From assembly GCF_002865545.1 (NCBI RefSeq), contig NZ_CP025543.1, positions 496,001 through 560,000 of the forward strand: a stretch of DNA of 64,000 bases, given 5' to 3'. The notes beneath the pieces are model-generated. The model had not been told where the DNA came from. It did not search any database and was given only the letters and a program-made list of their open reading frames with translations. Positions within the stretch are counted from its first letter, which is position 1; each line of letters begins with the position of its first letter. This stretch comes from Spiroplasma monobiae MQ-1. Lineage in GTDB: Bacteria > Bacillota_I > Bacilli_A > Mycoplasmatales > Mycoplasmataceae. Positions 14,816 through 45,052 of this stretch are shown in pieces. The position numbers were made by a program, and so were the translations under genes.

Positions 14816-16495
14816 TTATGCTCCTTTTAATATTTTTATTTTATTTTTAGTTTCGCTATTTAATTCAGATATTTTTACATAATTTTGTTTTTTTGAATTT
14901 TTAATAGTTTTTCTATTTGTTTTATCTATTAATTGATTAATATTTTCTTTAAGTTCTAATTTTAATTTTAAAACTTTCTCCCCAACTTCTTTTCAATCAA
15001 AATCATATTCATTCTTTAATATTTTTTTAGTTCTATTTTCAAAGAATTTAATTTTTGATAACAATAAAGTCGATGTAAAACTAATACTAATAGTTAAAAT
15101 CATACTCAAGAAACCTCACAAAAAGTTTCCACCAGCTCATGTATTTATATTAATACCCTCAGGTGCCTTTTGAACAAAACCAATTATCCCAAGTATTCCA
15201 AAAGGTGCTGCTGTAGTTCAAACACCCGATGCAGTGTATAGCAAACAACCAAAGTAGGTTCCTATCACAGCACCCACCATTGGATAAACATATTTAACAC
15301 CAACAGAATAAATACAAGGTTCAGTAACACCGGCTACAAACCCAGAAACTGCATTACTATAAGCAACTTGTCTTACTTTTTTACAATTTTTATTTTTTAA
15401 TCCAAATGCAAATGTTGCAACGGCTGTTGAGACATTTGAGAAAATTAATAATCCCAAGATTAAACTTCCGTCATTTTTTACAATGTCTTGCATTAAAATT
15501 GGTGTTATAGTTCTGTGTATGCCAAATATTACCATCGGAGAATAAAGAGCTCCTATTATTGGTGTAAAAATATATTTAGTTATTTGATGAGTCATCAAAT
15601 AGTTAAAAGCTATTGATAAATAACTTGTAAACAATAATCCTATTGGAGCAATAAATATTATTCCTATAAGTATTGTTGAAACAATTACAATTGTTGGTTC
15701 TATCAACATTCTAAAGTTTCCAAATTTGGCTTTTTGTAGTCCTTGTTGTATTAAAGATCCAATGTATGCAACCAAAACCATTGGTATAACCATTCCTTCA
15801 AAAGAAATCTTTCAAGGAAAATAAAAATCTCCAAATATTTTTCAACCAGGCATCGCATTTATAATGGTTTGTCCTGGTTCAAGTTGTATATCACTTAATG
15901 AAGTTAAGAACGGATTACACAATGCAGCACCAACAACTATTCCGTATATCGGATTTGCATTCATACATTTAAATGTAGATCAAGATACACCAATTACAAC
16001 AAAATAAGTTAATCCTCTTGAAATTGTCTTATTAAAATCATCTCATTGTTGAAGTCATTCAGCTTCTTTTATAGAATTTGAAGCTAAAAAGACGGGCATT
16101 CTTAACATTTCTCAAAAACCAATTGTTACCAAAACAATTAGTAAAGGAGAAAATATTTGTGAAACAAACGTTAAGAATGATCTTCTTTGTTTTTTAGTAC
16201 TTAAATCTGCAATCACTTCTTTATCTTTTAAATCTTTTGCTATTTCAATATTATTTTGAATTACAAATACTTTAAATAGTTTTGCAACACTTGGACCAAT
16301 AATAACTTGATATTCACCTGACGACAAAACTACGCCTTGAACAAAAGAAATTTTTTTAATTTCATCACTTTTAAATAATTCTTTATTTTTAACTATAAAT
16401 CTTAATCTTGTCATGCAGTTGTATATTTTTTCTATATTTTCTACACCCCCAACAAGATTGGTTAGATTTTCAATATCTTCTTTTTTAAATTCCAT
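14816..16495 (-). CDS. PTS beta-glucoside-type permease EIIBC 1, without EIIA (559 aa)
   Basis: Imports and phosphorylates a sugar of the glucose/beta-glucoside group. EIIB is at the N-terminus with phospho-Cys27 in Tyr-Asn-Cys-Met-Thr-Arg-Leu-Arg-Phe; EIIC membrane segments follow (about 110-470). The C-terminal 80-90 residues are cytosolic, charged and probably helical (many Lys, Glu, Asn). No EIIA domain is fused or adjacent, so phosphate must come from an EIIA elsewhere, such as those of the other two modules. The start follows an unusual run of six G (GGGGGGATGTA). A palindrome lies at 16562-16581 upstream. It is the middle gene of module 1. Confidence 0.85.
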
Positions 16496-20364: not shown

Positions 20365-22881
20365 TTAAATGCCATAGTTGATAAGTAATGAAGAAGTATC
20401 TTTTTTATATTCTTCTTTATAATTTTCAATTTCAAATTTTGCCTTTTTATTTATATAATCCAAAATTTTATAAATTCTGTCGAGTTTTTCTTTTTTTATA
20501 CTTTCTATTTTTTCAAAGTCAATTAAAGAATATAATTCATCCTTATGTTTTTCTAAATCAGCAAAATCCTGTTTAGCTAAATTATCTATATATTCTTTCG
20601 CAAAAAGTGCTTTTTCAGTATTATTTTTTTTGATTCATACCTGACCTTTTTTAAACATTTTTTCAATTAGCCTTTCTCGTCTCTCTTTTTTAGTTTCGAT
20701 TTCAGCTAAAACCTTAATGTATTTTTGAATGAATTTTTTCTCTTGATTTCTCAAAAACTTTATTTCTTCTTTTGTATATAAATTTTTTAATTCAGTTCTT
20801 GCTTTAATTATTTCCGGCTTTAGATTTAAATCAATTTCTTTATTTTTAAATAAAAAGTCAATTAATTTAATAGTTGTTCTGTTTATTAAAGTCTTTTCCT
20901 CTATTCTCTCTTTATAAAACAACATTGTAAGACCAACTCCAATACCAATTGTTATTCCAACACCCATTAGATAAAGCAATCCATTTTGCAGCGGTTCTAT
21001 TCTTGCAACACCACCAAGCATTGGATCTACAAAGAATCCTAAAGCTTCAAAGATTCCAATTCCTGTTTGAGCTCTATTTGAAACGTGTAATCAATTCAAT
21101 AAAGCCCCTCCAATAAATGCCGCAATAACACCACAAATTAAAGGTCGCTTTTTAGGAAGGTTAATTCCATAAAGAATAGGTTCTGTTATACCTAAAATAC
21201 CCATAGGAATCATTCCATAAGCTTGTTTTTTTAGAAGTTGATTTCTTGTTATAATAGCAACACCCACAAGCGCTCCTAACTGAGCTCAAACAGATAAACT
21301 TCCAGCTATACCAAGATAACTTCATCCTCCATTTGCCATACCTTCAATTCTGATTGCAATTCCTAAAGTTCCATGTAATCCGAAAATTACACAAATTTGT
21401 CATAGTGCAACATAAGCTCCAACACCTACTCCAAATGGAATATTTCCAACATAAATCATAAGTGCACCAAATAAAACTTCAATTAGCATTCATGCAGGGG
21501 TAAGGATAAAGAACCCAAACATTCCTGAAAATAGGAATAAAATAAACGGTCTAAACATTAACTCCAATGCCGATGGCATTCATCTAACAACTCATTTGTC
21601 AATTTTGGCAGAAATATAAATTATTGGTAAAATCACAAATACCTTTGTACCTAACGGAATAAGACTAAATATTTTAGTTATATTGTTAAAGGCTTCATTA
21701 GAAGTATGTATATCTTCTATATGAATTCATGTATAACTTAGACCTATTCCACTAGCTCCACCATCTGCAAAAATTATTGGTGCCGATAATATCAAGCCAA
21801 TTCCAATACCATATATTGGATTCAATTTAAATCTATCGGCTGCAACATATGCAATTGCAACTCCAGTAAAGTAACTTGTGCATCTACCCATTATAAATAT
21901 AGCTACTCATATCGTTGCTAACTCCGGATCAAATAAACTAACTTGTCTTGGATCTAATGGTTCTCTAGAAGTTACAATTGATGGCATAACTCCTGATAAA
22001 ACAAGTATAGCCATAAGCGCTTGTATAAGACCTGCTCCCGTCATAATCGGAATCATTCTTACCATGGTTCCACCAAGCACTCCTATAAATCTTGCAGCAG
22101 CACTTTTTGTTTGTTTTTGCACTTGATAGTTTGATTCTAAGAATTCATTTTGTAACATTATTTCATCTTTTACTTTATAAACATCTTGACCAATTACAAC
22201 TTGTAATTCAGAACCATTTCAAAGCAACTGTTTACAAATTGGCATTTTTTTAATAGCATCCTCATTTACTAAACTCTTATCTTTTACCGTAAATCTAAGT
22301 CGTGTCATACAATTATAAACTTGTTGATAATTGGCTTTGCTTCCAACAAATTTATTTAAATCAAATGCTATGGATTGATATTTATTTTTTACATTAAAAA
22401 AGTCTTCCAATGACTCAATATTTTTAACTTCCTTTTTGTATTCAACAGTACAAATAAGTTCACCTTGTTTGTAATCACCTTCTTTAAAATTTTTTATTAA
22501 AACATCTTTATCAAAAACCAAAGGTGTTTCATTTGAAATTTTTTTATCTTTTAACATTTCCAAATCAACCGAAAACAATTTATCTCCCTTTGATAGGTTT
22601 GTGTTCGGCTTTAATCTTGTCTTAAAAGGTTCCCCCTTTAGATTAACGGTTTCAATGCCACAGTGAATTAATATACCAAGATCATCAATTTCAAGTCCGT
22701 ATGCGTGCTTTGTATCAAAAACCATGATAACCTTAGCTCTATCAAACGGCATTGAAAAATCATTTTTGTTTGGTATTATCAAAATCCCATCACCTAGTAG
22801 TTTTTGTGCAAAAGCAGAATCAGAACACTTATCTAGACTCTTAACTTCACAATCTACTGGTGCATAAATCTTTATTTCCAT
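20365..22881 (-). CDS. PTS beta-glucoside permease EIIABC, module 2, with long C-terminal helical tail (838 aa)
   Basis: A complete fused permease. EIIA is N-terminal (His59 region His-Ala-Tyr-Gly; active His73 in Leu-Ile-His-Cys-Gly-Ile), EIIB next (Cys191 in Tyr-Asn-Cys-Met-Thr-Arg-Leu-Arg), then EIIC with about ten membrane segments (about 260-660). The A-B-C order is unlike the B-C-A order of E. coli BglF. After the last membrane segment there are about 190 highly charged residues rich in Lys, Glu and Ile, with heptad-like spacing: a predicted coiled-coil tail not typical of the family. TGA codons join the shorter frames. The start has AAAGGAGA. The upstream 22891-22912 motif is shared with the module 3 permease. 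Confidence 0.88.
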
Positions 22882-26309: not shown

Positions 26310-28850
26310 TTAATTAACTGCTAGTAAATTTCTTTTTTGTTCTTTTGTAAAGTAAATTTTTTTCTCTTCAAGAACACCATAACCTACCTCAACAGCATTT
26401 ACTGCATTTCAATATAAGTTTTTGAATTCTAATATTTCTTCTTTTTTAACTTCTTTTGAAATGTTTTCTACAAATTCAAATGTAGCATTTTCTAATTCTT
26501 TAACTGTTGATTCATAGTTTTTAACTGTATCTTTTCGGTCTTTAATTAGATTTTCTTTTTCTAACACTAATGGATTAATTTTATCAGTTAAACTATATGA
26601 ATTGTATCTCTCAACAATCATGTCAATTTTTTCTTGTTCTAATTTTTCATTAACTTGAGCTTTTGTTGCTTTTTTATATAGTTTAGCTTTTGTTTTTTCT
26701 TCTACACCATTTAAATAAGCAATTTTAGCTTCTAACTTAAGTAATTTTTGTAAATATTTTTCATATTCTTTAATTACTTCTTTTTTATCTTTTATTTGTA
26801 AAGAAATATCTTTAGAATTTTTTTCAAATCATTCTAAACTTTCTGAATTCATTTTTTTCAATAATTTTTCAATTTTTTTAGAAACATCTACTGCTACTTT
26901 GTATTCATTTTTTCTTTCTTTATAGAAGAAGAAAGTTAATAATATAGCAGTACCAATTGTTGCTAAAAATGATAATAATAATATAACTTTATGCATTGGC
27001 TCATCATAGTTTAGTACTGCTAGAATTCCTTGAGGACCTACAGAGTTTTGAACAACACCTAAGTAACCACAAATTAATCCACCAACACCTCCTGATAAAC
27101 ATCCAATTATGAAAGGTTTAACTTTTGGTAAGTTTATTCCATAAATAATTGGTTCTGTTATACCAAATACTCCTGCTGGTATTGCATTAAGGGCTAAGCC
27201 TCTTAAATTTCCATTTTTTGTAAATATAGCTATACCAATAACAGTTCCCAATTGTCCCATAACAGCTATTGTAACTGCGGGTAACATTGGTGAAGGTGTT
27301 GCACTTGTTATGATTGGTAACATCATTGTCATAGCAACAGCTACGTGAACACCTGTTAATACAAGTGGTTGTCATATAATTGTAAATAGAGCAACCCCTA
27401 TACCAAATGGTATAGCACCCAATAAATTAACCAAAATAACCATTAAGTATTCTAATAATCCCAATATTGGTCCTGCAATAAATAATACAGGAACTACTGT
27501 TAAGAAAATAACAATAGCTGATCTAAATACAATATCAATTGAACTTGGCATTCAAGTTTTAATTCATTTATCTGAATAAGCAATTATAAATCCAGCCAAT
27601 ATAAATGGAAGAACACTTCCTTCATAAGCTTTTATAACTACAGGATAATCAGATATCCTAAATAAGAACCAACCAGAAATTCCATATTTTGTTTCTGACA
27701 TCAACTGACCAAAACTTCATTCTTCAGTTCCAGTAGGCAATACTCCAACAAACAATATTCTTGAAGTCAATATCAATCCTGCAAATATAGCAAGAATAGT
27801 ATTCCCATTTAAATATTTAACCGTATTATATAAAAAGAATACACCAATTAAGTTTAATCCTACCTTTTGCAAAATGAACATAATTACTGAAAGTAAATTT
27901 GCATTTTCAATACTAACTGTTGGGTCATCAAGGTTTTGTGTTCAACCAATTTGGTTTGTAATTGCATATAGAGCACCAAATATACCAACAGCCATAAGCA
28001 CAGGGATAATCGGAACCATGATTCCAGCAATTGCTTCCATTATTATAGAACCAACAGATTTTTTAACTTTATCTTTTGTTTCTTTGGTAGATCCTGAATA
28101 GTTATCTAACTTTTCAATTTCTTCTCTTACTTTATAACATTCTCCACCAATAATGATTTGTAATTCATCACCAGCTCAATTTATACCTTTTACTAATTCA
28201 TTTGATTTTATTTTAGCTTCATCAACTTTAGATTTATCATTTATGTTAAATCTAAGCCTTGTCATACAGTTATATACTCTTGAGTAATTAGCTCTTCCTC
28301 CAACTGCATTCACAAAGTGTTCACCTGCTAATTGATATTTTGATTTAAATTCTTTTAAACCATTTTCGCTTTTAGCGGGAGACACTTGCTTATAACTAAT
28401 TTTACAAATCAATTCACCCTTTTTGTATTTTCCTTCTTTTAATCCAAGTATTTGAATATCTTCAGCACTTGCTGGATCAAATACAATTGGTGTTTCACTT
28501 GTTACATTGTTGTCTTTTAAAACTTGTAAGTCAACTTCAAATATTGCATCATTAAGTTTTAAATTTTGTTCAAGCTTTACCTTTTGAGTAAATGGTTTCC
28601 CATTTAATTTAACAGTATCAATACCACAATGAATTAAAACATCTAACTCATTGTTTATTTTAAAACCATAAGCATGTTTTGTTTCAAATGTCATCTTACA
28701 CTTAGCCTTATCAAATGGCAATGAAAACTTTCCGTTTTCTGGTATTACTACTATCCCATCTCCAAGCATTTTCTCTGAGAAAACAGCATCACTACATTTA
28801 GAAATGTGTTTTACTTCACAGTCAACTGGAGCATATAGATTAATTTCCAT
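26310..28850 (-). CDS. PTS beta-glucoside permease EIIABC, module 3, with long C-terminal helical tail (846 aa)
   Basis: Paralogue of 20365-22881 with the same A-B-C order. EIIA active His74 lies in Leu-Ile-His-Cys-Gly-Ile-Asp, EIIB Cys195 in Tyr-Asn-Cys-Met-Thr-Arg-Leu-Arg, and EIIC follows with about ten membrane segments. After the last segment (Phe-Phe-Tyr-Lys-Glu-Arg-Lys) come roughly 210 residues that are almost all charged or aliphatic, rich in Lys, Glu, Leu and Val: a predicted coiled-coil tail in the cytosol. TGA codons at about 26409, 26829 and elsewhere read as Trp. The start follows AAAGGAGAATTTTGT. Imports and phosphorylates beta-glucosides for glucosidase 4. Confidence 0.88.
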
Positions 28851-32159: not shown

Positions 32160-33914
32160 TTATTTTTTAGATTCTTTATCTTTTATTTTTTCAGATTTTT
32201 TAGCAGCTTTTTCAGCTTTTAATTTTTCTTTTTCAGCTTTTTCTTTTTCTCTTAAAACTTTAACTTCTTCAACATAAGCTTCATATTTAACTTTATCTTC
32301 TTTTAATTTAGCTTCTTTAGCTTTCATTTTTTCTAATTTAGCTTCATTAGCTTTAACTTTCTCTTCATGATTTTTAACATCAGTTTGCTTTGCAAATTTT
32401 TTAAAGTCAATTTGTGCGTTTACAACTTTTGTTGCGTATGCATCAATTTGTTTTTGAGTAACTTTTCTTCCAGATTCTCAATAGAAGAAGAATGTTAGTG
32501 CAAAAGCACTACCGAATGAAATTATGTTTACTAAGATAATTAATATTAAATTTCTCACACTATCTGTGTAAAGTAGTAGTCCAGGAATAACTGTTACACC
32601 CATTCCTTGACATCTAACATTAAGTAATCCTGCAAATAATCCACCAATAAATCCACCCAGTGAGGCAAAGATAAATGGTTTAATTTTTGGAAGGTTAACA
32701 CCAAATATTGCTGGTTCTGTAATACCAAACATTGTTGATATTGCAGATGACATTCCTAAGTTTTTTTCTTGCTTTGATTTTGATTTTAAGGCAACAGCCA
32801 TTGCAGCTCCACCTTGCGAAATGATTGATGCAGTTCATATCGCATTAAAGATTGATCCTTCTTTACCTAAACCATTTTGTACTAATTGAATCTCCAAACC
32901 TTGTAGAACTTGGTGACAACCAGTAATAACGATAGCTTGAAGAACACCCGCAATAATACCTGTACCTAAACCAAATGGTATATTTAATATAGCTTCAGTT
33001 CCAATTAGAATTCCGTTTTCAACCAATAATAATATTGGTCCCAAAACTAATAAAGCAACCAATAAAGATACCACAATTGTTAAGAATGGTGTGAAAATAA
33101 TATTTACAGATTTAGGCATTCATGTCTTAATTCATTTTTCAAGATATGCTACACCAATACCTATAACAAGTGCTGGAAGAACCGAACCTTGGTAACCAGT
33201 AATAGGTATGAATCCTAAGTATATTGGTGTAGCATTTCCTGTAGCTATAGCACCTTTATCTGGCAATAGTGGAGAAATAAGCATTAATCCAACAATAATA
33301 CCAAGTACTGGATTTCCTCCAAATCTTTTAACAGTTGATCAACAAACCAAAACTGCTAGAGATGTAAAAGCCGTTTTAGTTACAATATCAACTATAATTC
33401 ATAAAAGGTTTCCTTCTTCAGGCGAATTTCCAGGACCCAGTATAATAGTTTTCAATAATGCAGCAAAACCCATTGCCAGACCAGCTGCAACAATAGCAGG
33501 AATTATTGGTAAGAATATATCCCCTAATGTTTTCATACTTAATTGTAATCACGCAAATTTTCCACCCTTATTTCTAAATGCTTCTTTATTTGCTTTTGCT
33601 TTTAGTGCAAATTCATCAAATGATTCCTTTTTATTTGAATCACTTATATTTGCAGTTTTAACTTCTAATATTTTTTGAACTTCTGCATAGACAGCTTCAA
33701 CTACACCTGTCCCCAAGATAATTTGTAATTGAGTTGAACTTCAGTTAGTTCCTTTTGCTATTGGTGATTCTTTAATTGCATCAATATTTACTTTGTCTTT
33801 ATCAATTACATTAAAACGTAATCTTGTAACACAGTGTAAATATGATTCAATATTATCTTTACCAACAGCATCGACAAATCTTTGTGCTTCTTGAGCATAA
33901 TTTACTTTTGCCAT
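32160..33914 (-). CDS. scrA: PTS sucrose-type permease EIIBC with charged C-terminal tail (584 aa)
   Basis: Imports and phosphorylates sucrose. EIIB phospho-Cys28 is in Leu-His-Cys-Val-Thr-Arg-Leu-Arg-Phe; the EIIC domain covers about residues 100-465. The substrate is inferred from the adjacent ScrB and ScrK. No EIIA is fused, as usual for sucrose permeases, which borrow the glucose EIIA. After the last membrane segment there are about 115 residues made almost only of Lys, Glu, Ala, Val and Leu, a strongly predicted coiled coil. Its ribosome-binding region lies in the 24-nt gap after the GntR stop. TGA codons read as Trp. Confidence 0.88.
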
Positions 33915-34676: not shown

Positions 34677-36350
34677 CTATTTTAAATAGTTTTCAAGAGA
34701 ATTTTTACCCCACTTTGTCTTCATCAAGATTGTAGACATACCAATTGTTGCTCCAGTTGCAATAAGCATTGCTATTGAAATATGAGCCCCCATAGGTATT
34801 GATTGTAATATTGCATTAATATTTTCATTTGCAAAATATTCTTTTGTAGCTGTTGTTGTCCAATCGAATTGAACCAATCCAATTCAACTTGCACTACCAA
34901 GCGAGTTTGCAACAGTATGTGTCATTCCCAGTCATCAACCCGCTATTCCACTACCAATTGCAGCTGATACAAATAATGGTTTTATTTGTAAATTTATACC
35001 AAACATTGCAGGTTCTGTAATACCTGTAAATGATCCAATCGTTCCCGATGTAGCTTTTGTAATTTGTTCTTTGTCTTTCTTACAAAAGAACACAAGACTT
35101 AAAGCAGCAGCCCCTTGAGCTATGTTTGAAACACATGCCACTGGAGTTATAAATGAGAATGAATGACCATATTTTAATTGTGTATCTACCAATAATTGTG
35201 TCTCAATTGGTAAGAAACCTTGATGTAAACCTGTAATAACAAGGAAAGGATAGAAGAACGCAAACACCATTCCACCAAACCCTATAAAGTTTCAATTTGT
35301 ATATTTAAACATACCAGCAAGAGCAATTGATATTCCTCTTCCAATAATTTGTCCTAAGGGACCAATTATTCAAAATGCTAATCAAGATGAAATCAATACA
35401 GTAACCAAAGGTACCACAATAATTGCAATCACATTTGGAGTTATTTTTTTAAGTAATCTTTCAATATTGACAGATATAGCCAATACCATTAATACCGGTA
35501 TTATTTGAGCTTGATAACCAATAAGTTTTATCTTAAAGAAACCACCAGCAACATTACCAAATATTTGATAATATACCCCAACAGTTCTTGCCATCATAGA
35601 TAAATAGTCTTCTTCAGAAACAGTTAATCCATTCTCACTTAATCAATTATCGAAAGCAGCTTTTCTAGTTTCTTCAATAATGTTTGAACCTGTATTTAAG
35701 TCAAAACCTAATAATACGGGAGTGCTTGTAGAATAACTATTTAATAACCCAGGAGAGATTAAAACCAACCCCATAGCCATACCAAGATAAGGATTTCCAC
35801 CCCATCTTTTAGCTGCTGTATAACCAACAAACGCAGGAATAGATCCTAAAATAGCACCACCAATAATATCTAGCAATTTTGTAAAACCAGAAGTTGGTGC
35901 AAATGTTCCGATCAATGATTTTAGTGCCAAAGACATTCCACCAGCTATAAAAACTGGTATTAATGGTACAAATATTGAAGCAAAAGAGTTCATTCCTCTT
36001 TTTGAAATCATAAATAGATTTGACTTAATAGAGACATCTTTTCTTCATAAAGGCTCTTTATTTTCTAATTTAATATCACCTTCACTTTGATTATCTTTTA
36101 TAATCAAATTTATTTGTTTGTACAACTTGTCAACAACACCAGTTCCAATAATTATTTGATGTTGTGTTTCTTGCTTTTTATAACCTTTAAATAAAGGATG
36201 TTTTTTTGCTTTTTCTAAATCAAACTTATCATCATCAATTAATATAAATCTCAATCTAGTAGCACAATGTTGTATTTCCTTAATGTTATCTTTTCCGCCA
36301 AGAAGTTCGATCATCAATACAGCATTGTCGTAAAATATATTCTTAGACAT
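34677..36350 (-). CDS. PTS EIIBC permease, sucrose/trehalose group (557 aa)
   Basis: Imports a glucosyl disaccharide. EIIB has Cys29 in Ile-Gln-His-Cys-Ala-Thr-Arg-Leu-Arg-Phe, and EIIC contains Arg-Trp-Gly-Gly-Asn-Pro-Tyr-Leu-Gly-Met, as in trehalose and sucrose permeases. The protein ends about 15 residues after its last membrane segment, so unlike the other five permeases here it lacks the charged tail. I chose the ATG at 36350 because AGGAGGAAAT lies directly upstream; the longer GTG-started frame has no site. TGA codons read as Trp. It is the first gene of the sucrose and GntR unit, with an operator-like palindrome at its promoter. Trehalose or sucrose cannot be decided from sequence. 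Confidence 0.85.
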
Positions 36351-36402
36351 ATTTCCTCCTAATAATATTGATACATAGTAATTATTTATCTTTATTAACA
36401 CA

Positions 36403-37924: not shown

Positions 37925-40651
37925 TTAGTTAAATAGAGATTCAATATCAGGATATTCACTTATACCATTTACATAAAATCCAGTAAATTGATATACAGTT
38001 TTGCTTTTAACACTGTTTTGGTTATCTTTTGCTTTTATTGTTAATGTGTATGTACCATTTTTAAAGTTAGTAGCTGAACCAGGTTCAATTTCTATATTAA
38101 CAATATCAATTGGATTTAAATCAAAGTTTAAAGAAATAAATTGTTCTAATATGACTTTAGAAACTTTATTAGAATCAAGCAAGTCTTTTTTATCGGTGAT
38201 ACTACTAATAATTGATCCAACACTTTTAATTTGATTTTCCTTATCAGATAAATCAAGTGGTGAGGTTCTTAAAAATGCATCCTTTAAACTTCCCTTTATT
38301 AATTTAGAATCACTTTTTGCAGTTATATCAAATCTTCTATTAATCTTTTGACCTTGAATTTTGTGGAAATTACTAATTTGTATATCATTCATATATACAA
38401 GATACTCTTCTTCTTTTATATTATTTTTTTCAAAAAGTCCTTTTATTAAAACTTTTAAATCTTCTTTGTTAAGTTCAGAGTCTGAACCTTTATCAGCAAA
38501 ACCTTCTATAAAACCAAGATTTTTGTCAAAATTAGATATATCAATTATATCTTTTACAAAAACATCAAATTTAATATCTTTTGCATTTTTGTAAGAGAGT
38601 AAAATTGATGTATTACCTTGTTTTAAAGCTATAATTTTCATTTTACTTGAATCTTGATCAAAAGTAACTTTTACAATTTCTTCATTTGTTGTTTTAAATT
38701 TTAATGTTTCATTTTCTATTTTGTTTTGCACATTGACCAAAAACTCATTTGTGTCTCCAACACCAAATAATGTTTTATCTTCCACTTTTTCGATTACTGG
38801 GTCTAGTATTGTAGTCTCATTCACTTTAACTTTTAATACTGCCTCATTTTTTTGGTTATCTGCTTTAAAAATTAATTCTGTTTCACCTTTTTTTAAAGCT
38901 GTTATTTTTATTTCCCCTTTTGATTCAACTATATTTATATCAATAAAATCTACAGCAGTTTCTTTTAAAATTAAATTTTTAGCCTTTTTATTATAATTTA
39001 TTGTTTTTTCTACAGTTTGACCATTAACGATATTAAACTCTAAAGTTGATTCACTAAGTTCTATATCAACTCTATTGTCAAAAACTTTTATAACAAGAGT
39101 TTCATTATTTTTTGAATTACTTGCAGAAAATTCCACATTGTAAGTTCCAATTTTTGTTGCTTTAATATGTATTGTTTTTTGTTCATCGTTGATAACAACT
39201 TTTAATGATGGGTCAACTTCAGAATGAATACTTAATCCCTTTATTGATTTGTTGTATTCAATTGTTTCACTTGAAACTACATCATTTGTTAGTTCTAAAT
39301 TAATTTCTTTTTTACTCAAATTTATTTCATAACCTTCATCAATAACCTCTATAGAAACTGTTTTTGTTTTTAAAGAATTATCTGCTTCAAAAACAATATT
39401 TGTACTTCCTTTTTTCAGAGCTGAAAATTTTATTGTTTTTTCTTCTTGATAAACTTCTACTTTAACTACATCATTATCATTAGAAATTACTCTTAGATTT
39501 CTAATGGCATGACTATATTCTATTATTGTAATTTCTTTTTGCCCTTCATCTATTTTTAACTCAAGACTATCTGGAATATCTATTTCGTATTTGGATTCAG
39601 TTATATTTACTTCCATAATCTCTTCTTTTTTTGCATAAAGAGAATCAAAAGTTATTATAGCTCGACCAACTTCTATAGGTTTTAAATAAATATTATTATT
39701 ATTTTGATCTATTGAAACATCAATCTTGTTTCCACTTATGTCCTTTACAATCAATTCTTTAATATTTTTATTATATTTAACAACCTTATTATTTGAATTT
39801 TGATAATCTAACAATAATTCAATTTTATTTTGTTCAAGATTAATTTCTTCTGGGTCAATAATGGTTATGCTTAATTTTTTTGATAGTTGAAATTCATTTG
39901 AATAGAAGTTGACATAATAATTACCTATTGGTGAAGAAGAACTAAGGTAAAATATTATGCTTTTATTTTCTAATTCAATTTTTATATCAATAGAGTTTGG
40001 GGTATTTTTATCCTTAACAATAAGATCAGAAACCTTATTATTAAATTTAACTCTTTTTTCAGTATCTTTATCATTTATCATAAAAATAGAGTTATTACTT
40101 ATTAGATTACTTTGTGTTACTTTTGTAAAATTTATTCACATAAATATAGAAAGAGCCAATATTACAAATAATGAAATTAATATAGCCAAAGATATTAATA
40201 TATTTTTTTTAACTTTTGGATTAGATATTTTTTTCTCTTTATTTGTTAGATTATCTAGTTTGTCTAAATTTTCTTTAAGATTATTATTTGGTTTTGATTC
40301 TTTTTTTATATTTTCAAAATCACTTTTTTTCTTATAATTTTTACTATCAAAATCTTCTTTTACTTTTGGGCTTGAAGGATTTGTATTATTATTAAAACTT
40401 GGTATTCATACTTTTGCATTATTTTTGATTATCATTTGGCAACAATAACAATGTTGACAAAAACCAAATAAAAAATGTTCATAAATAGGCACTTGCACAT
40501 TTGTATTTCAATAACAGCTACATTGATCGCAGCTTCTGTATAAGAACTGAATATAAGAAAATGCATCGCTTATTAAATAAAACCTACCCATAACATTATG
40601 GTTATTATCAACAACATAAAATGAATTATCGTTAATTAATATGTAGTACAT
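37925..40651 (-). CDS. Type II Ig-like repeat surface protein with Cys-rich cytosolic head (908 aa)
   Basis: Function unknown; the architecture is clear. Residues 1-80 hold seven Cys (41, 44, 46, 65, 68, 70, 71) in two clusters, a zinc-ribbon-like pattern rare in mollicutes. A charged linker rich in Asn, Lys and Ser (80-148) leads to one membrane segment (150-173). About 735 residues outside follow, with five to seven repeats of 80-90 residues, each with an Ile-Asn-Tyr-Asn-Lys-like element and a Thr-x-Ile-x-Phe-x-Ala-like strand, resembling bacterial Ig-like domains. The ATG at 40651 is inferred by extending upstream through TGA (Trp) codons of the shorter 718-residue frame. A GGGGAG site precedes it. 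A 16-nt T run lies next to the -10 box. Confidence 0.8.
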
Positions 40652-42583: not shown

Positions 42584-45052
42584 TTAAATTAAAACTTTAG
42601 ACTTATACTCATTTGTAAACTTTTCTCTAAGTTTAATTTGATGCTCTACAATTTTATTTTCAAATTCATCTTTAATGTTAATTTTTTGGTTTGAATATTC
42701 TTCTAAATAATTTTTTTTATCAAATTTTTCCAATGATGAAACCTTTTCTTTTTTATTATTAACTAAATCTGAAATCGCATTAGCTCTATCTTCTTTTGCG
42801 GTTTTAACAAATTTTTTAGTTTCTTCTCTTTTTTTATTTACAAATTCTTTTTCAGAATCTTTTAAACCTTTGTAAATTAATTTAGCTTTTTCGATTTTTT
42901 GAGTTGTTTCACTATTAATTAAATTTATTTTATCTTTTAAAGCATTTATTTTATAGATAACATCTTCTCTTTCTTTTTGAGTTTTAGACATTTTTACTAA
43001 TTCATTTAATCCTTTAATTTCATTTTTAATCTCTGAAATTTCATATTTCTTATCTTCAATAAATTTTTCAACAGTAAGAACATGAGTTTCTTTTAAAGAT
43101 CCCACAGTTCCTCTGCTTGAAATTAATAACATTCCATAAACCGATGTTGTAACAGCAACTCCAGAAGCAATAGCTATGAAGAATACTGCAGTTTGTCATC
43201 CATAAGGAACAGCACCCAATATAGCAACAATTGGTCCACCATGAGCTGCAAGATCAGTTATTTGAAATGCTCCTGCAATTGCTCCTGCAACCATTCCACC
43301 AAGAACATTTGAAATAATTGCTCTTTTAGGGTCTCTAATAGCAAATGGGATTGCACCTTCAGAAATACCAATAGTACCCATAATCATTGCGGAAATACCC
43401 ATTCCTCTTTCTTCTTTTGTAAAGAATCGTTTAAACACAATTGTGCTCAAACCCATTGATAAAGGAGCAACTGGTATTGCAGCCGCCATTGCACCCATAG
43501 GTTCTGCAATAGGATCTGCTAGAGTAACAAGTGATGCACAAGTAACAAATGCAATTTTGTTAATTGGACCCCCCATATCAAATGATGCCATAGCACCTAA
43601 CAATATTCCCAAGGCAATTCCCAATCCAATACCAAAGTTTGGACTTTGATATCCACTCTTAATTGCATTAGATAATTGTTCCATCACATAACCAATTGGT
43701 CCACCAATTACATAAATAAATAGAACAGATATTCCAATACCTGCTGTTAGAGGTATGAAGAATATTGGCATAACAGCTTTTAATGATTTGTTAACTTTTC
43801 AAGTATTAACTCACTGAACATAGTAACCAACCAATAAACCAGCAATAATAGCTCCAATAAATCCTGTTGGGGTTCTAACTTCACTCATACCTGGTAAAGG
43901 CATGAATTTAGAAGCATCATTACCAATAAAAGCACCAAGCATTGCAGGAGCAATTGCTGCTCTTCCAGCTATTGAATTAGCTATGAATCCAGCTAATATA
44001 GGTATCATTAATGTAAATGCAGCTCCTCCAATTGAATCCATTATTGCTAATGGATTTCAAGGATATCTGTTTTCAGGACCAGCAGTACCTGATTCGGGTC
44101 CTCAAATTGCTTTAGCAATTCCTATTGAAAATGCCAAACAAATTCCACCCATTATAATTACAGGGATCATATATGAAATACCAGCAAGTATATGTTGTAG
44201 AACCCCTTGTTTTTGTTTAGCAATTCCACCTTCATTGCTAAATTCAACCCCTAATTGAATGCTTCCTTTTAAAAAAGCATCGTCAAGAACCTTTAATGGT
44301 TCTTTTATAGCTCTGGCAACATGTGTTGAGTACACCAATTTCCCATTAAATCTTTCAAGATTAACTTTTGTATCCGCTGCAATAATGACTACATCAGCAG
44401 CTTCAATTTCTTTTGAAGTTAATGGGGTACCAACCCCTTTACTTCCTTGTGTTTCAACACGAATATTGTGTCCCGCTTTTGATAATTCTGATAATAGTTT
44501 ATCTTCTGCCATATAAGTATGAGCAACACCAACAACACACGCAGTAATTGCAACAACATTTTTACCATCAAGGGTATTTGCTTCTTTAAAGACTTTATCT
44601 ACTTTAATATCCATAAATTTAGAGAATTCTTTCGAGTTTTTAGCAGTTTTTAATTTTTTTCTTAAATCTTCAGACATAAGTTTTTTAGCAGTTTCACTTA
44701 ATATATTTAAATGTTCACTTGAAGCATTTTCGGGTATTATTAATGCAATAATAACTTTTGTAGGTTTACCATCAAGTGATTCTCATTCTACATCGCCTAA
44801 TGTTCTAACACAAATTATTGAAGCGCTTTTTATACCCTTTACCTTTGCATGGGGTATTGCAAAACCATCTTCAAACCCAGTTGTTCCTTCTTCTTCTCTT
44901 TTATAAAATGCCTTTAAAAGAGATTCTGATTCTGAAAAAATACCAAGTTCTTGTGCTTTATTTGTAATATATTTTAGAACTTCATCTTTTGAATTTAGTT
45001 CAATGTCTAAGAATATATTTTTGTCTATATAAATATTTTCCAAAATTTCCAT
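42584..45052 (-). CDS. fruA: PTS fructose-type permease EIIABC with long helical tail (822 aa)
   Basis: Imports fructose or mannose as phosphosugar. EIIA of the fructose group is N-terminal (active His68 in Ala-Ile-Pro-His-Ala-Lys), EIIB next (Cys172 in Thr-Ala-Cys-Val-Val-Gly-Val-Ala-His-Thr-Tyr-Met-Ala), and EIIC (about 290-650) contains Glu-Gly-Ala-Ile-Pro-Phe-Ala. The last 165 residues are an uninterrupted Lys- and Glu-rich segment with almost no Pro or Gly, a predicted coiled coil. TGA codons in EIIC read as Trp. ManA and a Cof-type phosphatase follow upstream, so mannose may be a substrate; no 1-phosphofructokinase is adjacent. Confidence 0.9.

Follow-up and report, generated by a model that had tools for sequence, protein, structure and literature searches.

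Five of the six PTS permeases encoded in the window, a 64,000-nucleotide stretch of the Spiroplasma monobiae MQ-1 genome, extend far past their last membrane segment into charged tails, and two of these tails, on the EIIABC proteins of modules 2 and 3, are by profile comparison one domain family of about 200 residues. Our leading, tentative reading is that each tail adds a folded helical module on the cytoplasmic side of a mollicute PTS permease and most likely acts within its own permease or dimer. PTS permeases are textbook proteins assembled from few domains. Here, a conserved unannotated helical domain is found on many mollicute permeases and further, unrelated tails on others, and hundreds of codons go into an addition of unproven function in organisms whose genomes are small. 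A search by titles and abstract openings, with subscription papers mostly outside its reach, found no paper on such permease tails.

The window covers positions 496001-560000 of a genome of 891,575 bases on one contig, and its genes read TGA as Trp. With the six permeases translated and tail length counted as the residues past the last hydrophobic 19-mer, EIIBC1 (module 1) has 74 residues, the module-2 EIIABC 181, the module-3 EIIABC 201, the sucrose EIIBC 105, the fructose EIIABC 176, and the sixth permease (34677-36401) 12 (Table 1). The preliminary description of this DNA had given long tails to five permeases and none to the one beginning at 34677, which the measurements bear out; the tails are real, although the lengths it proposed (80-90, 190, 210, 115 and 165 residues in the same order) differ from ours. 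It had also called them charged and nearly free of Pro and Gly, and they are, with 40-52% K/R/E/D and at most four P+G in each of the five. Scored by the most charged 70-residue stretch holding at most two P+G, the tailed permeases reach 0.43-0.61, with the stretch every time lying within the tail or at its edge, while five of the 39 other window genes reach 0.38, with a maximum of 0.41. None of the five non-PTS window proteins with at least four hydrophobic segments extends more than 61 residues past the last one. Elsewhere in the same genome, a fructose-type permease (L008) has a charged tail of 79 residues, L003 ends 34 residues past its last hydrophobic segment, and the C-terminal ends of L001 and L002 read as EIIB. 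A further EIIC of this genome (L006, C1:433748-434905) has a 93-residue C-terminal segment that resembles a decayed EIIB lacking the Cys motif, for which no EIIB match was found in Pfam.

Table 1. Tails and conserved tail segments of the PTS permeases in the window (coordinates count from the first letter of the window).
Feature	Coordinates	Strand	Description
C-terminal helical domain, module-2 EIIABC	20368..20910	-	Residues 658-838, 181 residues; EIIABC tail family, a homologue of the module-3 tail; helices predicted by AlphaFold2, block pLDDT 77-94
YKER..E start of module-2 tail domain	20896..20916	-	Y656-E662; E662 invariant in 50, R/K659 50/50, Y656 43/50
Y.NA.NS..I.YG C-terminal motif, module 2	20368..20409	-	Residues 825-838; Y836 43/50, N at 827 43/50 (K in module 2), S831 39/50, I834 39/50
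C-terminal helical domain, module-3 EIIABC	26313..26915	-	Residues 646-846; same family as the module-2 tail
C-terminal helical tail, fructose EIIABC	42587..43114	-	Residues 647-822; separate family; helices predicted by AlphaFold2 at 653-688, 692-740, 742-771, 776-821
Fructose tail conserved start G..GS(L/V)KE.HV	43079..43111	-	Residues 648-658; G648 and S652 15/15, H657 13/15
Fructose tail conserved end YQ..LRKKFV.EY	42605..42643	-	Residues 804-816; F/Y812 and Y/F816 15/15
Sucrose EIIBC tail, Lys/Glu/Ala-rich	32163..32477	-	Residues 480-584; separate family, no helical periodicity
EIIBC1 tail	14819..15040	-	Residues 486-559; separate short family
Tail-less permease	34677..36401	-	12 residues past last hydrophobic segment

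Profiles built from 21 module-2-type and 28 module-3-type tails align over 193 columns with an hhalign probability of 99.4 (E 2.5e-21), against 0-0.1 in three column-shuffled controls; BLAST between the two window tails found nothing (E 0.11). They are, judged by these profiles, one domain family of about 200 residues, so that the earlier statement that the permease tails share no sequence similarity fails for this pair, homologous over about 190 columns, and holds for the other pairs. We define the family by profile homology of the tail together with a YKER..E start and a Y.NA.NS..I.YG end, which are its most conserved parts, and modules 2 and 3 show all three. The family turns up in all of an alignment of 50 EIIABC proteins of the order, most of them belonging to the window's GTDB family, with tails of 51 to 301 residues and most at 177-216, the value of 51 (L173) reflecting a hydrophobicity cut placed late in a protein whose residues 643-831 the tail HMM covers. 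No Pfam or NCBIfam model covers the tail. Searched with the tail HMM, the 9,809 ORFs of the window and all loci gave 85 matches at E<=1e-3, and the matches listed outside the training loci are all C-termini of PTS permeases or short pieces of disrupted copies. The domain also occurs on EIIBC proteins that have no EIIA, such as L433 (675 aa, E 1e-30), and the only EIIABC seen with it outside the window's family is L065 (genome G037, family f3), in which about 100 extra residues are inserted near the tail start. Among the 50 EIIABC proteins, EIIA H73 is conserved in at least 90% and EIIB C191 is invariant; since these two, which we take to be the phosphorylatable active residues of EIIA and EIIB, are conserved, the permeases look functional.

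The fructose, sucrose and EIIBC1 tails are three further unrelated families. Profile comparisons between the fructose, sucrose, EIIBC1 and EIIABC tail families gave hhalign probabilities of at most 2.8, and the first three score at most 1.1 against the EIIABC tail family and lie outside it; homology of all five tails is thereby ruled out except for modules 2 and 3. In orthologues from several genera the fructose tail is 159-185 residues long and 23-43% identical, compared with 49-83% for the bodies, with a conserved GS(L/V)KE.HV start and a conserved end bearing Phe/Tyr. Within the window's genus the sucrose tails span 94-141 residues (13 sequences) and the EIIBC1 tails 65-76 (6 sequences). 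The preliminary description had supposed that only coiled-coil character was selected, but the specific residues conserved at the tail ends show that this is wrong for the EIIABC tails of modules 2 and 3 and falls short for the fructose tail. Remnants of a C-terminal EIIA or EIIB were also considered and rejected, as the tails have no PTS-domain match and only weak unrelated Pfam matches, at E 0.07 or worse.

Tails can be absent while the permease body is intact, as in the sixth permease of the window, the sucrose permeases of genus g2 (29-30 residues past the membrane), two fructose-type permeases of one g5 genome (48 and 57 residues) and the FruA of genome G096 (L084), and for this reason the function of the tail is not essential to transport. 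The G096 FruA comes to a clean end 41 residues past its last membrane segment, and a lipoprotein-like gene comes next. A decayed tail at this locus, considered from a match reaching residue 784, was dismissed on these reading frames. The protein is a natural short-tailed version within a tailed family.

The controls came from 80 named non-mollicute loci, mostly of Firmicutes, with 84 EIIC proteins between them; of these proteins 71 have the domain order B-C-A, 7 A-B-C and 6 B-C. EIIA follows through a linker of 17-44 residues in the B-C-A proteins (58/71, those where the cut works). The A-B-C proteins end 0-2 residues past the membrane (7/7) and the B-C proteins 1-27 (n=6). No tail was found in the 13 named non-mollicute permeases that have no C-terminal EIIA, nor in the 11 class-level FruA proteins, which end 0-16 residues past the membrane. 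Among these controls no equivalent tail turned up outside the mollicutes; such tails throughout Firmicutes were an outcome that the preliminary description had named as speaking against it. The seven named non-mollicute permeases with the EIIA-EIIB-EIIC order and no tail are L212, L213, L214, L215, L216, L218 and L220.

The mollicute survey covered fetched EIIC proteins without C-terminal EIIA or EIIB, counted a tail from at least 60 residues, and sampled loci rather than every permease of each genome. On this basis tails occur in 16 of 31 permeases from five genomes of the window's family (18/33 including L006 and L381, set aside as EIIB-like), in 7 of 28 from 16 genomes of other families of the order (9/30 including L317 and L297, with a likely missed EIIB or EIIA), and in 0 of 11 at class level, three of these being EIIB pieces. 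A restriction to the window's GTDB family is excluded by the seven permeases in other families of the order. Other long charged tails of 125-180 residues occur on the mollicute permeases L400, L401, L402 and L410 (families f10 and f11), and none of these four matched any of the four tail HMMs. In this sample the tails are a habit of mollicutes. They are most frequent close to the window's genome, arose more than once and are lacking in some orthologues, such as the G096 FruA.

Modules 2 and 3 share their EIIA, EIIB and EIIC domains with the beta-glucoside EIIBCA proteins of BglF/BglP type (TIGR01995; PF02378, PF00367, PF00358). TIGR01995 is their nearest NCBIfam model, but they score 286.2 and 331.4 bits, below its cut-off of 614.7, and their order is A-B-C-tail instead of B-C-A, with the tail of about 200 residues standing where the usual BglF/BglP protein has its short linker and EIIA. 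PF02378 is over its cut-off in module 1, module 3, the sucrose permease and the sixth permease; on module 2, against a cut-off of 30.7 bits, it scored 29.5 in one search and 30.7 (counted over) in another. A-B-C permeases of Gracilibacillus, Virgibacillus, Oceanobacillus and Pectinatus likewise begin with EIIA, after which come EIIB and EIIC, and differ in stopping 0-2 residues past the last hydrophobic segment in all seven cases. In the window's fructose EIIABC all three FruA domains (TIGR01427, TIGR00848, TIGR00829) are over cut-off, and it is set apart from the 11 class-level FruA proteins by its tail.

AlphaFold2 models the module-2 tail, from 50 sequences, as eight helices (662-679, 685-699, 704-751, 755-769, 774-786, 789-814, 819-829 and 831-835) and the fructose tail, from 23 sequences, as four long helices with block confidence of 74-92; long helices often score high in prediction confidence. 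Both tails are confidently predicted to be helical, but a simple long coiled coil is not predicted for module 2. Disorder, the other outcome named beforehand as refuting, is absent from both models and was set aside for these two tails. Hydrophobic periodicity at 3.5/3.6 beats shuffled sequences in the module-2, module-3 and fructose tails (p 0.004-0.024), while the sucrose tail gives p 0.72 and 0.91 and the EIIBC1 tail 0.31 and 0.10, with 0.048 at 3.67. The earlier claim that the tails are no part of the textbook EIIC fold is supported, for the alignment with solved EIIC structures mostly breaks off at residues 657-667 of module 2 and 647-657 of the fructose permease. Structure searches with the whole-protein models returned match lists filled by EIIA, EIIB and EIIC, with nothing useful on the tails by themselves; the one row covering the module-2 tail, 9cpb_6U (Z 7.2, rmsd 8.7, 162 aligned), is within chance for helices. 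A profile search among the sequences of solved structures gave two weak matches reaching into the tail, 9uvy_A (E 0.0017) and 2jqq_A (E 0.0052), which we attribute to composition.

All tails are under purifying selection, weaker than that on the permease bodies. Across 13 ortholog pairs dN/dS is 0.12-0.60 in the tail and 0.06-0.17 in the body, always higher in the tail, and the gapped columns number 0-4 in every pair but one, which has 31. Body and tail distances are correlated (Spearman 0.50 in 50 EIIABC, 0.69 in 15 FruA; 0 of 999 permutations as high), though the nearest neighbours by body and by tail agree in only 25/50 EIIABC and 9/15 FruA.

Each tail most likely acts on its own permease, because the four families are unrelated in sequence, change in step with their own bodies and are most conserved at the membrane exit and the C-terminus (in the two families scored). 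Against this reading stand the permeases with an intact body and no tail, the limited agreement of nearest neighbours, and the sucrose and EIIBC1 tails with their lack of clear helical periodicity. The tail would lie on the cytoplasmic face of EIIC or EIIB, packed there with its middle free to drift, and so packed it may hold the attached EIIA or EIIB, stabilise the dimer, or set transport activity or gating. An adaptor for one common partner would be less likely than action within or between permeases. A single shared role exercised through generic coiled-coil character, as had been suggested, does not fit, since two tails belong to a single conserved domain family and the others to unrelated families, each with conserved ends of its own.

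It is possible, though we think it unlikely, that the tails are instead activity sensors, each a basic helical module lying on anionic lipid or on the permease and released by intracellular ionic strength, which would tune uptake in wall-less cells. Two papers describe such a role for the unrelated C-terminal domains of ProP, BetP and OpuA, cytoplasmic extensions on transporters that act as ionic-strength or activity sensors and form a coiled coil in ProP (PMC10710835, PMC4272814). The mollicute tails would resemble those of ProP and BetP as predicted helical cytoplasmic C-terminal extensions, but the likeness is not one of sequence, and ProP, BetP and OpuA move osmolytes rather than PTS sugars and have no PTS domains. 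In line with a sensor, all 83 scored tails (49 EIIABC, 15 fructose, 13 sucrose and 6 EIIBC1) are net basic, as against 9 of 50 EIIA domains of EIIABC proteins; yet EIIB domains are basic too (49/50), and the charge could simply follow from the positive-inside rule. Still more speculative is the idea that wall-less bacteria have on several occasions joined basic folded helical modules of unrelated sequence to the cytoplasmic end of PTS permeases, the largest being the as yet unnamed domain of about 200 residues, and that sugar uptake thereby came to respond to the ionic or mechanical state of the cell. We know of no control layer of this kind for PTS permeases.

We consider it improbable that the tails serve to tether or cluster partners such as the cytoskeleton, glycosidases, EI or HPr, although long charged helices are common binding surfaces and modules 1-3 adjoin genes that we read as presumably encoding GH1 glycosidases. 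Four unrelated families in one genome speak against one common partner, and the fructose permease has no such adjoining glycosidase within the window. As for the cytoskeleton, MreB matches track tails poorly across genera. Genome G096 has tailed permeases (the sucrose-type L121, 138 aa, and L066), yet its best MreB match is only 5.5e-19, the level of most genomes of other families, and the g5 genomes have six MreB matches each although their measured fructose-type permeases end after 48-57 residues. Matches are strong in g1, g3 and g5 (best per genome 2e-127 or better); the comparison is nevertheless soft because they are weaker in g2, g4 and g7 (best per genome 9e-20 to 6e-54), where they may be divergent MreB or related proteins, and also in g6. 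Binding of the cytoskeleton, proposed earlier, thus draws no support from where the tails occur.

Nor do we think it probable that the tails are nearly neutral extensions, helical only through the Lys/Glu-rich codon bias of an AT-rich genome (23-30% G+C), for although they evolve faster than the bodies, are missing in some orthologues and have similarly charged counterparts in 5 of 39 other window genes, dN/dS is below 1 in 13/13 pairs with few indels in 12, specific residues are conserved at the tail ends, profile homology spans deep paralogues, and among the multi-membrane proteins of the window only PTS permeases have tails. Low complexity or chance as the whole explanation was rejected on the 39-gene composition comparison, dN/dS and the shuffled-profile controls.

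Apart from the permeases, the window encodes at 37925-40651 a protein of 908 residues whose N-terminus is rich in Cys and which has a single hydrophobic segment as well as Ig-like repeats (PF13629, 27.5 bits).
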